A stretch of DNA of 64,000 bases. Source: Roseivirga misakiensis (lineage in GTDB: Bacteria > Bacteroidota > Bacteroidia > Cytophagales > Cyclobacteriaceae). The position numbers and the translations under genes were made by a program. The stretch spans positions 1,054,001 to 1,118,000 of the forward strand of contig NZ_MDGQ01000005.1 in the NCBI RefSeq assembly GCF_001747105.1, read 5' to 3'. The notes beneath the pieces are model-generated. The model searched no databases. It was given only the letters and a program-made list of their open reading frames with translations, and had not been told where the DNA came from. Shown here piece by piece: positions 780 to 41,234 of this stretch. Position 1 is the stretch's first letter. The number at the start of each line of letters is the position of its first letter.

Positions 780-3317
780 ATGAAAAAATCTATTCTAACA
801 CTCACCTGTTTTTTTGCTTTAATCGCTACACAGGTATTCGCTCAAACCCCTCATCCGAGAGAGACTTTTGGATTTGAAGTAGGGGCTGATTATAAATTGG
901 CCGACTATGATCAAATGCTCACTTACTACGATAAGTTAGCGGCAGCCACGGATCGAGTTCAAATGATTGAAATTGGTAAATCTGTCATGGGCCGACCGAT
1001 CAAATTGCTCTTTATCTCTAGTGAAGAGAATATGAAGCAGCTGGAAAGGTGGAGAGAGATAAGTGAGAAACTATCTAGGGCAGAAATTTCTGAGGAAGAG
1101 GCAAGGCGCCTGTCCAAGGAAGGCAAGGCGATAGTTTGGATAGATGGAGGAATGCATGCAACAGAACGTGCCCATGCTCAAATGACTTCGGAACTGATGT
1201 GGAAAATCGCTTCTGAAGAGTCTGACGAAATGAAGGCTATTCGTGATAATGTAATCACGCTAATGGTGCCTGTAACTAACCCCGATGGTGTCGATATCGT
1301 AGTGGATTGGTACCGCCAAAATGTGGGTACAACTTTTGAAACTACTGGCCCACCGATCTTGTATCAAAAATATGTTGGGCACGATAATAACCGTGACTGG
1401 TTTATGAATAACATGCCTGAAACTAGGGCGTTAACCACCATTTTACATAAAAAGTGGTATCCTCAAATTGTGCACAATCATCACCAAACGGCACCACGTT
1501 GGGCAATGATTTTCTTGCCACCTTTTAGAAGCCCAGTTAACCCAAGGATTCACCCAGGCGTTACCACGGGCGTCAACCTTGTCGGTACGGCTATGGCCAA
1601 TCGTTTTGCTATGAAAAAGATGCCGGGTGTTATATCTGGCACATCATTTAGTATGTTTTGGAACGGTGGAATGCGTACTGCGCCTTATTACCACAACCAG
1701 ATCGGTATTCTGACAGAAGTCGCTCAGCCAAGTCCTAAGCCCACTTTCTACGACCCTGCTAAAAAGCCAGCGACAGTAGGTGGAACAGCTTCCAATGGCA
1801 CTGAAATTTTCTATCCATACCCTTTTGAGGGCGGCGAGGTTAAATTTAGAGATGCAGTGGATTATATGATTACTGCATCAATGGCCATACTAGATTTGGC
1901 ATCGGATAAGCGCGATGAATTCCTCTATAATATCTACAGCATGGGTAAGGATGCTATTGAAGATGAGGATGGTGCTTTTGCTTACGTGATTCCGAAAGAT
2001 CAATGGAACCCAAGCGAGGCGGTTAATTTGACGAATGTTTTAATTCAAGGTGGACTAAAAGCGCACAAAGCTACAGCGGCCTTTACGGCCAATGGAAAGT
2101 CTTATGAGGCTGGTTCGATAGTCTTTTATGGGGCACAGCCTTACCGACCTTTCCTTGAGGATCTTATGGAAAAACAAGATTACCCTGATCAATTCCTTTA
2201 CCCTGGCGGGCCACCTCAGCCACCATATGATTTAGCAGGTTGGACACTTCCAATGCAAATGGGTGTTTCTGTAGATAGAATTGAATCCGATTTTAGCGCA
2301 CAAACAGATGAGATTACGGAAGATCTTTCTTTTGAGGAAGGTACTATTTCTGGAAATGGTCGATATGGTTATGTGTTTTCCAATAAAGACAACCAGAGTG
2401 CTACTGCCGTAAATAGGCTACAAAGAATGGGATATGCCGTTAGTCTAATGACAACTGACCAAGGTGACCTTCATGCTGGTTCTTTTATGGTGAGAAATAA
2501 AAGAGGTTTACAGACACAAGTTGAGTCTTTAGCCAAAACATTAGGCCTTGATTTTGTCGGTATAAATAAGAAACCTAGTGCTACCCTTAAGGCATTAAAG
2601 AAAATTAAGCTTGGTATATATAAATCTTGGCAAGCCAATATGGATGAGGGCTGGAGTAGATGGATGCTCGAGCAATTCGAGTTTGACCTAGATACACTTC
2701 ATAATGAAGATATCAAGACAGGAGATTTGTCTCAATATACCGCGATCATTATGCCTTCTCAGAGCCCTAATGGCATATTAAATGGCCATAGAAAAGGAAG
2801 AATGCCAGAGAAGTTTGTTGGTGGAATAGGTAAAGAAGGAGTTTCTGCCCTAGATGACTATGCCAAAGCTGGCGGAGCCTTAATCTTCTATGATAATGCC
2901 AGTGATTTTGCTATTCAGCAATTTAAACTTCCAGTAAAAAATGTAACCAGTGGTTTACGACCAAACGACTTCTTTATTCCAGGTTCATTGATTAGAACGA
3001 ATGTAGATGTAAATCATAGATTGGGTTTTGGTATGATGGAAGAAGTAGCCGCATCCTTCAATAGAAGCCGTGGATTTAAAATGGAAGATGGAGCCACGGG
3101 TGTGACCGAAATTGCTCAATACGCATCTGATGACTTGTTGATGAGTGGTTGGGCTTTAGGAGAAGAAAATCATTTAGCCAATACTTCTGCAATGATGCAT
3201 GTGGCACATGGCGAAGGAGATCTCGTGTTATTTGCTTTTAGACCACAGTTTAGAGGTCAACCTAGAGGAACCTATAAGCTGATATTTAACGCGATTTATC
3301 TAGGTGCCGAACGATAG
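780..3317 (+). CDS. Secreted M14-family zinc carboxypeptidase with C-terminal amidotransferase-like domain
   Basis: This 845-residue exported protein begins with a signal peptide ending near AQ22. It is probably a periplasmic or outer-membrane exopeptidase acting on peptides. The M14 zinc site is complete: the HATE motif gives H126 and E129, the third ligand lies in HNHH (about 232-235), and the catalytic glutamate is E313 in ILTEVAQ. Beyond about residue 600 there is a region resembling the class I glutamine-amidotransferase fold (SWQANMDEGW, then IIMPSQSP, then GGALIFYDNAS). It has no nucleophilic cysteine at the elbow, so it is probably a binding or structural domain. Large M14 proteins with this layout are common in Bacteroidota. 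The gene stands alone and converges on the gene at 3333, only 15 bp away. Function is confident at family level; the substrate is unknown. Confidence 0.88.
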   Translation: MKKSILTLTCFFALIATQVFAQTPHPRETFGFEVGADYKLADYDQMLTYYDKLAAATDRVQMIEIGKSVMGRPIKLLFISSEENMKQLERWREISEKLSRAEISEEEARRLSKEGKAIVWIDGGMHATERAHAQMTSELMWKIASEESDEMKAIRDNVITLMVPVTNPDGVDIVVDWYRQNVGTTFETTGPPILYQKYVGHDNNRDWFMNNMPETRALTTILHKKWYPQIVHNHHQTAPRWAMIFLPPFRSPVNPRIHPGVTTGVNLVGTAMANRFAMKKMPGVISGTSFSMFWNGGMRTAPYYHNQIGILTEVAQPSPKPTFYDPAKKPATVGGTASNGTEIFYPYPFEGGEVKFRDAVDYMITASMAILDLASDKRDEFLYNIYSMGKDAIEDEDGAFAYVIPKDQWNPSEAVNLTNVLIQGGLKAHKATAAFTANGKSYEAGSIVFYGAQPYRPFLEDLMEKQDYPDQFLYPGGPPQPPYDLAGWTLPMQMGVSVDRIESDFSAQTDEITEDLSFEEGTISGNGRYGYVFSNKDNQSATAVNRLQRMGYAVSLMTTDQGDLHAGSFMVRNKRGLQTQVESLAKTLGLDFVGINKKPSATLKALKKIKLGIYKSWQANMDEGWSRWMLEQFEFDLDTLHNEDIKTGDLSQYTAIIMPSQSPNGILNGHRKGRMPEKFVGGIGKEGVSALDDYAKAGGALIFYDNASDFAIQQFKLPVKNVTSGLRPNDFFIPGSLIRTNVDVNHRLGFGMMEEVAASFNRSRGFKMEDGATGVTEIAQYASDDLLMSGWALGEENHLANTSAMMHVAHGEGDLVLFAFRPQFRGQPRGTYKLIFNAIYLGAER

Positions 3318-36764: not shown

Positions 36765-38387
36765 ATGAGATTCAATCGGAACAAGTTTGGACTGGTTGCA
36801 GCATTGATGTTCTTGACCCAGATGATGTGGGCACAAGACTACAATAATGCAAGTCAACTGGCCCAACGACTTCGTGGATTGGCAAACTCCTCAAATGCCG
36901 CCACGCTAAAGTCCATTACAAAAACATTAGGAGGTAAAGATGTCTGGATGCTCACTTTGGGTACCGGAGATATGGAAAATAAACCAGCCATGGCTGTGGT
37001 AGGTGGAGTTGAAGGACAACATCTGTTAGGCGTAGAAATGGCTGTGCGTTTTGCCGAAGATATTGTTAAAAACAACCTCGGCGCGTTGGACAATACAACA
37101 TATTATGTATTTCCTAACATGAGCCCTGACGCTACAGAACAGTATTTTGCCAATCTTAAATACGGTAGAAGTGCTAACGCAAAGAAGACGGACGACGATC
37201 GTGATGGCCGAATGAATGAAGATCCATTTGAAGATTTGAATGGTGATGGTATGATCACAATGATGAGAGTTGAAGATGCTACGGGTGATTGGATTACACA
37301 CCCAGCGGACGATAGAGTAATGATCAAGGCCAATAAATCTAAAGGCGAAAAAGGTAAATACCACTTGTTTACCGAAGGAGCCGATAATGATAAGGATGGC
37401 GCTTTTAATGAAGATGGTGATGGCGGAATTTACTTCAACAAGAGTTTAACTTTTTCCTACGACTACTTTACACCAGGTGCTGGTGAGCATCCTGTGTCTG
37501 AATTGGAGAATAGAGCACTATTGGACATCCTGTATACGAAGTGGAACGTTTACGCCATTATGACCTTTGGGCCTGGAAACAACTTATCTAGTGCTTGGAG
37601 GTACAACAGAGCAGGCGCGTCCAAAAGAGTAGTAACTAGTGTCCTCAGAAACGATGAAACTATAAACAAATTGGTTTCAGGTAAATACAATAAAACTGTA
37701 GGAACAAAAGACGCTCCGCCATCAGTGGAGCCTGGAGGTAGCTTTAATCAATGGGCATATTTCCACTTTGGAAGACTTAGTTTCAGTACACCAGGATGGT
37801 GGGCACCGATGGTAAAAGGTGACTCTACCATGAAGAAAAATACCGATAAGAATAGAGAGGTCAATTATCTAAGATGGGCTGAGAAAGAAGGCCTTTCGAA
37901 TTATTTCGCACAATGGACCGAGATGGATCACCCAGATTTTCCAGGTAAAAAAGTAGAAGTGGGTGGTATTGCACCATTCAACATGCTAAACCCGCCAATT
38001 TCAATGATTGACGATTTGGCGAGTAAGCATAACAAATTTATCATGGAACTGGCCGAAATGCAGGCAAGTGTTGAATTGATCAACCTGAGGGCTGAGTCTG
38101 TCGGAAAAGGCATGACCCGAATTACGGTAGACCTGTACAATGGTGGCACTTTACCAACCCACTCACAAATGGGATCAAGATCGCGTTGGTTAAGACGCGT
38201 TAAGATGGAATTGAAATTAGGAAAAGGACAAGAGATCGTTTCTGGTCGAAAAGTTAATTTGATCCCTTCTATTAACGGTGACGATTCGGTATCATTTACT
38301 TGGCTCGTTAAAGGAAAAGGCACAGTTTCTCTTGAAGCTGGTGCACCCCACATTGGATTCACTTCAACAAACGTAAATCTTAAATAA
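36765..38387 (+). CDS. M14-like pseudopeptidase with calcium-binding-like loops
   Basis: This 540-residue secreted protein (signal peptide ending WAQ24) is homologous to its downstream neighbour but lacks the M14 active site. Aligned without gaps, the neighbour's zinc ligands H109 and E112 fall on E83 and H86 (VEGQH). The third ligand H309 corresponds to about G269, and the catalytic E382 to about P343. Two Asp-rich loops resemble EF-hand or dockerin calcium sites (DDDRDGRMNEDPFEDLNGDG near 143-162, DNDKDGAFNEDGDG near 207-220). It lies 6 bp before the active gene, so the pair is probably one transcript. Likely a partner or binding subunit (inference). Confidence 0.8.
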   Translation: MRFNRNKFGLVAALMFLTQMMWAQDYNNASQLAQRLRGLANSSNAATLKSITKTLGGKDVWMLTLGTGDMENKPAMAVVGGVEGQHLLGVEMAVRFAEDIVKNNLGALDNTTYYVFPNMSPDATEQYFANLKYGRSANAKKTDDDRDGRMNEDPFEDLNGDGMITMMRVEDATGDWITHPADDRVMIKANKSKGEKGKYHLFTEGADNDKDGAFNEDGDGGIYFNKSLTFSYDYFTPGAGEHPVSELENRALLDILYTKWNVYAIMTFGPGNNLSSAWRYNRAGASKRVVTSVLRNDETINKLVSGKYNKTVGTKDAPPSVEPGGSFNQWAYFHFGRLSFSTPGWWAPMVKGDSTMKKNTDKNREVNYLRWAEKEGLSNYFAQWTEMDHPDFPGKKVEVGGIAPFNMLNPPISMIDDLASKHNKFIMELAEMQASVELINLRAESVGKGMTRITVDLYNGGTLPTHSQMGSRSRWLRRVKMELKLGKGQEIVSGRKVNLIPSINGDDSVSFTWLVKGKGTVSLEAGAPHIGFTSTNVNLK

Positions 38388-38393
38388 GCCGAC

Positions 38394-40133
38394 ATGAAAA
38401 ACTTTATAAACAAACTCGTTTTATCGATTTGCTTACTTGGGTTTACTGCTGCAGCTTATGCCCAAAGTGCGGATGAAATATTTAGAGCCGTTGGTTCACC
38501 TCACAATCCGAAAGTACAAATTAGCTTTAACCGATACTACACTGCGGAAGGACACGCTGTACTCACCAAGAAGATAGCCGATGCGCACCCTAACCTAGTA
38601 AGAAGAGTATCTATTGGAAAGTCCTATGAAGGACGCGACATGTGGATGCTACAGATTACAAACTTCGAAAAGGGAGAGCCACATAGAAAACCAGGTTTCT
38701 ACATCGATGGTAATATTCACTCAAATGAAATTCAAGGAGCTGAAATTTCGATCTATACCGCTTGGTACTTAACTGAGAACTATGGCGATGTTGATTATAT
38801 CACCAAAATGCTCGATGACCGCATCTTTTATATCGTACCGACCATCAATCCTGATGCGAGGAATAACTATATGAAGGAGCCGAATACAGGTAGTTCTCCA
38901 AGATCGGGGATGATTCCTTTGGACGATGATAGAGATGGTCTTTTTGACGAAGATGCACCAGACGATCTGGATGGTAACGGTTCTATCACTCAAATGAGGA
39001 GAAAAAGTAATACTGGGAACTTTATTTTAGACCCGAAAGATCCAAGAAAAATGATCTTGGTCGGTGTGGACGATAACGTGCCTGCTAGTGTACAGCGATA
39101 CGAAATGCTAGGTCAAGAAGGAATTGACAATGATGGCGATGGTAGAGTTAACGAAGATAGAGTAGGGTATTACGATCCAAATAGAGACTGGGCGTGGAAA
39201 TGGCAACCTGATTACATTCAAGGTGGCGCGTACAAGTATCCGTTTAGTGTGCCTGAAAATAGAAACGTTGCAGATTTTGTTTTGGCACATCCGAACATTG
39301 CTGGTGGACAAAGTTACCACAACTCTGGGGGAATGATCCTTCGTGGTCCTGGTGCTCAAGAAGATCTTTCGACATATAACAGAGCAGATCTTAGAATCTA
39401 TGATGCCATAGGTCAAAAAGGAGAGAAGATAATGCCTGGTTATAGATACCTAGTGGTTTACAAAGACCTTTATTCAGTATTTGGCGGAGAGCTGGACTGG
39501 ATGTACGGTAGTCGAGGTATTTACACCTTCACCAACGAGATTTTCACCCGATTTGCCTATTACAAGAATAATCAGGGAGGGCAAAACCTTAACTACGACA
39601 TCGATACCGAGTTGTTAATGGGAGATGCTTTCGAACCATGGAAGCCTTACAATCACCCAACTTATGGAGAAATAGAGATTGGTGGGTTCAAAAAGAACTT
39701 CGGTAGAGCAACTCCTGGTTTTATGTTAGAGGAAGAGTTGCATAGAAATATGGCTTTCACACTTTATCATGCTTTTCATATGCCGAAACTGAGCATAGGA
39801 GAGGTTAAAGAGAAAGATTTGGGAGGAGGCTTGAGAGAAATCACCGCCACCATCAAGAATGAAAGACTAATGCCAACGCATGCTTCTCAGGATTTGAAGT
39901 ATAAAATTGAAAGACCTGATTATATCAGCATATCAGGCGTTAATGTTCAAGCAGGTATGACGGTTCAGAATGAAGATTTTGGATTTACTACTGAGCAAAA
40001 ACATAATCCTCAAAAGTTAGAGTTGGCCAACATTCCAGGAAATAGTACAGTAACTGTACGCTGGATTGTTAGTGGCAAAGGCAAGTATACCATCACGGTA
40101 GACAGCGCCAAAGGAGGCTTAGTAAGCAAATAA
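38394..40133 (+). CDS. Secreted M14-family zinc carboxypeptidase with calcium-binding-like loops
   Basis: This 579-residue protein has a signal peptide ending AYAQ24. The zinc site is complete: H109 and E112 (IHSNE) and H309 (QSYHN), with catalytic E382 (TFTNEIF). Two Asp-rich loops between the active-site segments resemble EF-hand calcium sites (about 177-197 and 245-255) and are shared with the upstream pseudopeptidase. The last 110 residues look like a beta-sandwich domain. It should release C-terminal residues from peptides outside the cytoplasm. A strong terminator follows at 40150. Confidence 0.9.
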   Translation: MKNFINKLVLSICLLGFTAAAYAQSADEIFRAVGSPHNPKVQISFNRYYTAEGHAVLTKKIADAHPNLVRRVSIGKSYEGRDMWMLQITNFEKGEPHRKPGFYIDGNIHSNEIQGAEISIYTAWYLTENYGDVDYITKMLDDRIFYIVPTINPDARNNYMKEPNTGSSPRSGMIPLDDDRDGLFDEDAPDDLDGNGSITQMRRKSNTGNFILDPKDPRKMILVGVDDNVPASVQRYEMLGQEGIDNDGDGRVNEDRVGYYDPNRDWAWKWQPDYIQGGAYKYPFSVPENRNVADFVLAHPNIAGGQSYHNSGGMILRGPGAQEDLSTYNRADLRIYDAIGQKGEKIMPGYRYLVVYKDLYSVFGGELDWMYGSRGIYTFTNEIFTRFAYYKNNQGGQNLNYDIDTELLMGDAFEPWKPYNHPTYGEIEIGGFKKNFGRATPGFMLEEELHRNMAFTLYHAFHMPKLSIGEVKEKDLGGGLREITATIKNERLMPTHASQDLKYKIERPDYISISGVNVQAGMTVQNEDFGFTTEQKHNPQKLELANIPGNSTVTVRWIVSGKGKYTITVDSAKGGLVSK

Positions 40134-40149
40134 GCCATCAAAAAATCTG

Positions 40150-40185
40150 AAAAAAGCCACTCCGAAATTCGGAGTGGCTTTTTTG
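40150..40185. terminator. Intrinsic terminator after the M14 pair
   Basis: A stem of about 15 bp (AAAAAAGCCACTCCG and its complement) with a short AT-rich loop has T-runs on both sides. It can serve the M14 transcript and the convergent hydrolase gene ending at 40203. Confidence 0.92.
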
Positions 40186-40202: not shown

Positions 40203-41144
40203 TTAAGGGTTTTCTTCTAGCCACTTGATAGCCACCTTCGACATATTTCGGTAATCATGGCCAACATTTTTAACAGTGTCAATTTCCCAGTTAAACGTCC
40301 AGTTATTTGAGCTACTCAACTGAGCATTGGCTTCATAAAAATTGGAACCCCGTTCTAACCTATGACCACCTTGTTGCATTGCCAAATCCGTAGTTCTGAA
40401 AGTCCCTAGACTGGGGTCATTGTCCAATTCTCCCAAGAGGATGATCAGCCTCTTTTGATAGGCGATTTGTAAATCAGTATTACTGTTCGTATGCGAAATC
40501 CCATAAGGATACCTGATGGTATTGTTTGGGAAAGTATAGAATCCAGCATTGGCGGCTATGGCAGTTTCAATGCGAGCATCCGGCATGAGCATTATCATCC
40601 GATGAACAAATTGTCCACCCGCAGAATGTCCGAAGATATCATAAGTACTATTGGTTATGTCATTAACCGATTTGACGTGGTCGAATATGTTTTCTATGAC
40701 GGTAAAAGCCCATTCCTGTTTGGGGTTTTTGGTACCAAAAAAGGTGAAAAGATTACCTTCCTGATAATCGTTAGTAGTGTATTTGGCAAACTTGCTTTCA
40801 AATGCTGGAGCCACAATGAGTAGATTATTGTCCTCAGCTGCTTTTACCCAAGCTTCAAGGTAATCATCCGCATTTCTGCCACCACCATGCATTACAAAGA
40901 CAATTTTATCTCCGCTTTTCCAGTTTTCAGGTTTGTAGGTCCAAACACGTATGGACTTTCTTTTACTTTCATGATAGGCGTACATCACAAAGTTGTCTTT
41001 CCCAACAAGTATGGGAGTCGGGGTAGTGACTTCTGGCCCTTTTGGCAATTTGTATAAATAGACATAGCCAGTAATACCCAAGAGTAAGAGCAATACAAAA
41101 CCAAAGACTAGGGTCTTCCGGATAATGCGTAGGAGTTTATTCAT
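40203..41144 (-). CDS. Polyhydroxybutyrate-depolymerase-like alpha/beta hydrolase
   Basis: The protein has 313 residues from the ATG at 41144; the frame is open to a TTG at 41174. One N-terminal membrane helix (LVFGFVLLLLLGITGYVYLY) anchors it, leaving the hydrolase outside. The oxyanion region is VMHGGGRNADDYLEAW, the nucleophile is the Ser in FGHSAGGQFVHRM, and a late histidine lies in KNVGHDYR. It resembles the LpqC/PHB-depolymerase esterase group. Natural substrates may be polyesters or acylated sugars. Confidence 0.75.
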   Translation of the reverse strand: MNKLLRIIRKTLVFGFVLLLLLGITGYVYLYKLPKGPEVTTPTPILVGKDNFVMYAYHESKRKSIRVWTYKPENWKSGDKIVFVMHGGGRNADDYLEAWVKAAEDNNLLIVAPAFESKFAKYTTNDYQEGNLFTFFGTKNPKQEWAFTVIENIFDHVKSVNDITNSTYDIFGHSAGGQFVHRMIMLMPDARIETAIAANAGFYTFPNNTIRYPYGISHTNSNTDLQIAYQKRLIILLGELDNDPSLGTFRTTDLAMQQGGHRLERGSNFYEANAQLSSSNNWTFNWEIDTVKNVGHDYRNMSKVAIKWLEENP

Positions 41145-41234
41145 TGACTGAGCTTTTTGGTTGAAACAAAGCAATTGTGCTATGTTTTTTCCATGCTAAG
41201 GTCATGCCAAACTGTAAGCCTTTTGGAGTTGAGA

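Follow-up and report, generated by a model that had tools for sequence, protein, structure and literature searches.

Within the 64,000-nucleotide stretch of Roseivirga misakiensis DNA analysed here (the window), two genes, which we call p1 and p2, encode secreted proteins of the M14 metallopeptidase family (Table 1). The two genes are spaced by 6 bp. Given that a gap of approximately 110 bp lies upstream of p1 and that an intrinsic terminator stands 3' of p2, the pair looks like one complete transcription unit. Both proteins begin with a Sec-type signal peptide, as judged by inspection. They align end to end in BLASTP (25% identity over 532 columns, E=2e-35), which bears out the homology over most of their length proposed in an initial interpretation made from the letters alone (the sequence-only reading). 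Both match Pfam PF00246 (Peptidase_M14), with 51 bits for p1 and 134 bits for p2 against a cut-off of 21.6, while a search of NCBIfam with p1 and p2 found a model for neither. Past the terminator, a convergent gene (window 40203-41174, minus strand) shows weak similarity to PHB depolymerase/esterase models. The genome holds five further M14 genes of other subfamilies, at window positions 780-3317 and in four other places, and all five (L002-L006) keep the HxxE motif.

Table 1. Features of the p1-p2 locus, in window coordinates
Feature	Position	Strand	Evidence
p1, secreted M14 pseudopeptidase, 540 aa, signal peptide	36765..38387	+	Translation, alignment, Pfam
p2, secreted M14 metallopeptidase, 579 aa, catalytic residues all present	38394..40133	+	Translation, alignment, Pfam
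p1 acidic loops 1 and 2 (residues D143-D153 and D157-I164)	37191..37256	+	Asp/Glu positions nearly invariant across 128 relatives
p1 acidic loop 3 (residues D207-D217, DNDKDGAFNED)	37383..37415	+	Conserved across 128 relatives
Bidirectional intrinsic terminator, 16-bp stem	40150..40184	.	3' of p2, closes the two-gene unit

The M14 residues of p2 are all in place (H109, E112, R170, N263-R264, H309, Y360 and E382). We compared both proteins with their relatives in 146 gene pairs, assembled from the best 80 relatives of the genome scan described below and 80 further fetched regions; 128 pairs are non-redundant at 95%. Each of these p2 residues recurs in at least 124 of the 128. In p1, the positions aligned with H109, E112, H309 and E382 of p2 are occupied by E83, H86, G269 and P343. 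Translation and alignment showed these assignments, together with the gene coordinates and the spacing, to have been exact in the sequence-only reading. The third zinc ligand position of p1 is Gly in 100 of the 128 relatives, Ser in 27 and Thr in one, and never His; at the catalytic position 120 have Pro and none has Glu. Approximately at Pro318, where p1 aligns with the catalytic Tyr (Y360 of p2), Pro is found in 95 of 128. An intact active site was found in 0 of the 80 p1 relatives read in the genome-contig scan and in 0 of the 128 non-redundant pairs, so that no lone homologue with an intact HxxE/H/E site came to light in either set. The zinc and catalytic residues are gone, and p1 is indeed the pseudopeptidase it had been taken for.

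The same interpretation had remarked on an inversion of HxxE to ExxH in p1. This arrangement is present in the window and is the commonest state, but it is not a conserved motif: position 83 is Glu in 85, Asp in 23, Gln in 6, Ser in 5 and Lys in 4 relatives, and position 86 is His in 99, Gln in 10, Tyr in 6 and Leu in 5. Since both positions vary among the 128 relatives, we reject ExxH as a functional motif.

Other parts of the p1 fold are held more strictly. Position 226, matched in the alignment to the N-R pair Arg of carboxypeptidase T, is basic in 126 of 128 relatives (Lys in 98, Arg in 28); Arg135, by alignment the putative counterpart of carboxypeptidase Arg127, is kept in 116 and Asn138 in 127. 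These residues match, or adjoin, those that hold the C-terminal carboxylate of the substrate in carboxypeptidases, and p1 may therefore retain the ability to bind peptide ends. Acidic, calcium-type loops are likewise conserved. Two Asp-rich loops had been described in each protein; loops of this kind are present in p1 and p2, but their number is three, and the same three occur in both. In p1, loop 1 follows the pattern DxDxDGxxxED and loop 2 the pattern DxNxDGxI, and in loop 3 D207, D209, D211, E216 and D217 are each found in at least 127 of 128 relatives. All three loops are near-invariant in both families, and from their sequence patterns calcium binding by p1 and p2 is plausible.

AlphaFold2 predicts a confident M14 fold for p1 (62 sequences, pLDDT 89.8, pTM 0.88). 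The closest solved fold for both proteins is that of carboxypeptidase T, an M14 enzyme of Thermoactinomyces, to which the p1 model aligns with Z 29 (284 aligned, 17% identity) and the p2 half of a fused model with Z 36 (301 aligned, 27% identity). Carboxypeptidase T differs from the pair in being a single active enzyme of approximately 325 residues that has neither the C-terminal domain nor the long insertion with the acidic loops. Foldseek-based searches gave, among the matches listed, M14 entries only, and a profile search of solved structures gave carboxypeptidases of the M14 family only; with the p1 sequence alone, no solved structure was found. By homology and fold (Pfam 51 bits; carboxypeptidase T Z 29), p1 is thus a member of M14, but it lacks the zinc ligands and catalytic Glu of an active peptidase, which p2 has. 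The two genes lie in the same frame, and by reading the single TAA between them as Gln we obtained an artificial fusion; the same read-through was possible for 26 relatives, which yielded a paired alignment. The fused p1-p2 model reached pLDDT 82.2 and pTM 0.66, on a scale where we estimate approximately 0.5 for independent halves and approximately 0.85 for a confident complex, and is no more than suggestive of binding between p1 and p2.

A profile scan of approximately 85,000 species genomes returned at least 517 relatives of p1, of which the best 80 were read. The active site is missing from every one of them. A p2 gene lies downstream on the same strand in 79 of the 79 loci with sequence there; 78 of these read full HEHE, and in the remaining one the residue at the third ligand position is undetermined. 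Gaps between the genes are mostly -4 to 60 bp, and the order is fixed, with p1 first. Among the matches listed, the pair occurs in Cyclobacteriaceae, Flavobacteriaceae, Chitinophagaceae, Sphingobacteriaceae, Spirosomataceae, Bacteroidales, Saprospiraceae and Balneolaceae. The p1 protein of the window shares 91% identity with its counterpart in Roseivirga sp. E12. The dead-plus-live M14 pair is kept together throughout Bacteroidota (sensu GTDB). Recurrence of the pair in other members of the phylum, p1 always without the ligands and always accompanied by p2, had been put forward as a check and is what we observe.

Co-occurrence was assessed in 390 order-level and 395 phylum-level genomes, each searched with p1 and p2; true p2 scores exceed 300 bits and are cleanly apart from a third M14 paralogue at approximately 210 bits. 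Both genes are present in 109 distinct genomes and a single one in three. In G133 p1 stands at a contig end, in G536 p2 runs from base 29 of its contig, and G135 is 92% complete in 350 contigs; all three can be explained by incomplete assembly. In three genomes (G049, G107 and G589) p1 and p2 are unlinked and both are still in the genome, which indicates that linkage alone is not what keeps the pair together. A comparison of 41 diverse loci showed no shared genes other than p1 and p2, the next commonest neighbour family occurring in four, and a conserved third partner gene sought in these loci was not found.

Some loci depart from the two-gene layout. A three-gene version, p1-p2a-p2b, occurs at L120 (G517) and L145 (G719); in G719 p2a is without the third zinc ligand and p1 is a fragment at the contig start. 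At L245 two copies of p2 follow p1. In G004 (Roseivirga, L157:5091-6688) and G517 (C74:6251-7863) the p1 gene falls into two open frames beside an intact p2; p1 may be dispensable there, or the split may reflect a sequencing or assembly error or a frameshift.

The p1 and p2 distance matrices correlate with r=0.84 (best of 2000 shuffles, 0.27), a value owed in large part to shared ancestry, which we count as support for a partnership and do not claim as proof. With tree row L251 disregarded as a wrong frame, both Roseivirga genes have Flavobacteriaceae pairs as their nearest relatives outside the genus, above pairs of their own family. This suggests that the two-gene unit moved as a whole, likely by horizontal transfer.

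We consider it probable that p1 and p2 form a two-subunit secreted M14 complex, with p2 as the catalytic and p1 as an obligate non-catalytic binding or structural subunit. The two-gene unit would yield an exported complex, periplasmic or extracellular, in which p2 would act as a zinc carboxypeptidase-type enzyme. The role of p1 would draw on what it has kept, namely the M14 fold, the acidic loops and the carboxylate-holding basic residues (Arg135, Lys/Arg226; Asn138): its probable tasks are to bind either the substrate or a target on the cell surface and to shape or stabilize the complex. In short, p1 is probably a necessary partner of p2 rather than junk. As in known dead/live heterodimers, homologous dead and live chains are co-encoded. 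The observations beneath this reading are the homology, the loss of catalytic residues, linkage, co-occurrence, purifying selection and the predicted fold of p1; from them we infer the physical heterodimer, the retained peptide binding, the calcium binding and the substrate. Counted against it are four genomes with p1 and p2 unlinked or p1 alone, as well as G004 and G517 with their split p1 and intact p2.

Alternatively, p1 could be exported to bind peptides or a surface and serve the same pathway as p2 without contacting it, the genes being held together by co-expression and shared transfer. The retained basic residues at the carboxylate-binding positions would suit such a protein, both genes persist unlinked in family f22 and in G589, so that linkage is inessential, and the fused model is only half-confident (pTM 0.66). 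The near-perfect co-occurrence together with the lack of a third partner, however, goes beyond what most pathway partners show, and we regard this arrangement as rather unlikely.

The sequence-only reading had offered subunit, inhibitor and substrate presenter as roles for p1. Subunit is the best of the three, and the inhibitor role is weakened by genus g116 (family f13), in which p2 is intact in three species and dead in four. The dead site reads RSNQ in L099, where H and E are retained, A, D, C, E in L103, L, P, Y, H in L104 and L, T, Y, H in L105, amounting to the loss of 2 to 4 catalytic residues in graded steps, and the four dead p2 cluster together inside p2 in the tree. In these species both frames are intact and p1 is still adjacent; a second p2 orthologue was sought in them and not found, and other M14 genes exist there. 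A dedicated inhibitor or prodomain-like keeper, blocking the p2 site until export or calcium binding, would fit the fixed p1-first order and tight linkage, which suit an inhibitor made ahead of its target. Yet an inhibitor whose target enzyme is dead would be expected to decay, and p1 matches the enzyme in size and carries a whole M14 fold, whereas known M14 inhibitors and prodomains are small. We judge such a role unlikely. Because p1 persists beside a dead p2, where a mere inhibitor or feeder would escape selection, a joint non-catalytic role is favoured. It is conceivable, and we put it forward tentatively, that the conserved task of the p1-p2 complex is binding rather than proteolysis, in which case an all-dead M14 pair would be an extracellular binding module.

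It is very improbable that p1 is instead a different enzyme, with a new active or metal site built from E83, H86 and p1-specific residues such as H334 and W345. Its near-invariant, p1-specific residues (H334 in 125, W345 in 126 and N273 in 120 of 128 relatives) would be in keeping with a rebuilt site, but many relatives have S, K, A, Q, L or Y in place of E83 and H86, the third ligand and catalytic positions are Gly/Ser and Pro, and H334 aligns near carboxypeptidase A residue 261, which we take not to lie beside the zinc. That p1 is the decaying copy of an ordinary tandem duplication, a pseudogene on its way, has the split genes of G004 and G517 in its favour but is hardly credible and is ruled out by dN/dS: strong purifying selection acts on p1, whose dN/dS among close species is 0.007-0.07 and resembles that of p2, open frames are intact in nearly all of the 146 pairs, and the dead state is common to all p1 in the phylum.

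Partners of the kind we propose for p1 and p2 are known from other families. Mitochondrial processing peptidase (MPP) and the bacterial M16B pairs TTHA1264/TTHA1265 and SPH2681/SPH2682 consist of homologous chains, one without the zinc motif; the bacterial M16B chains are encoded by neighbouring genes, and the dead chain is needed in M16 pairs (PMC12731061, PMC11266112). p1 and p2 are likewise homologous dead and live chains from neighbouring genes, although the fold and family differ (M16, HxxEH) and the heterodimer, proven there, is one that we infer here. Similarly, Csd1 and Csd2 of Helicobacter pylori (M23) are cell-envelope metallopeptidase homologues from adjacent genes (HP1543/HP1544), and Csd2, without a full zinc site, binds Csd1 1:1 (PMC5053510). 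They share with our pair the adjacent genes and the one member with an incomplete zinc site, and differ in their LytM fold, peptidoglycan substrate and dimerization through helical domains. By analogy, the p1-p2 pair is best read as working like MPP or Csd1/Csd2, yet as a member of M14.

Pseudopeptidases of M14 are themselves known: CPD domain III, AEBP1/ACLP, CPXM1/2 and yeast Ecm14. Like p1 they have the M14 fold and have lost catalytic residues; unlike p1 they are eukaryotic, with fewer key residues changed. The M14 cases in a review of metallopeptidase pseudoenzymes come from animals and yeast only, with none from bacteria, and it describes none that is encoded alongside a separate active partner (PMC11266112). 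In CPD dead and live domains lie within one chain, whereas p1 and p2 are separate. We found no description of a bacterial dead/live M14 pair in the open-access literature. Overall, the interpretation offered by the sequence-only reading is partly supported.

To the dead/live metallopeptidase partners known for M16 and M23 these results add a phylum-wide M14 pair in a self-contained two-gene unit. Since Pfam labels the dead p1 a peptidase, the annotation of hundreds of genes is affected (at least 517 relatives). The pair is a clean system in which to ask how a pseudopeptidase serves its active homologue, and genus g116 provides a natural series, with p2 also dying, in which catalytic and non-catalytic roles are separable.
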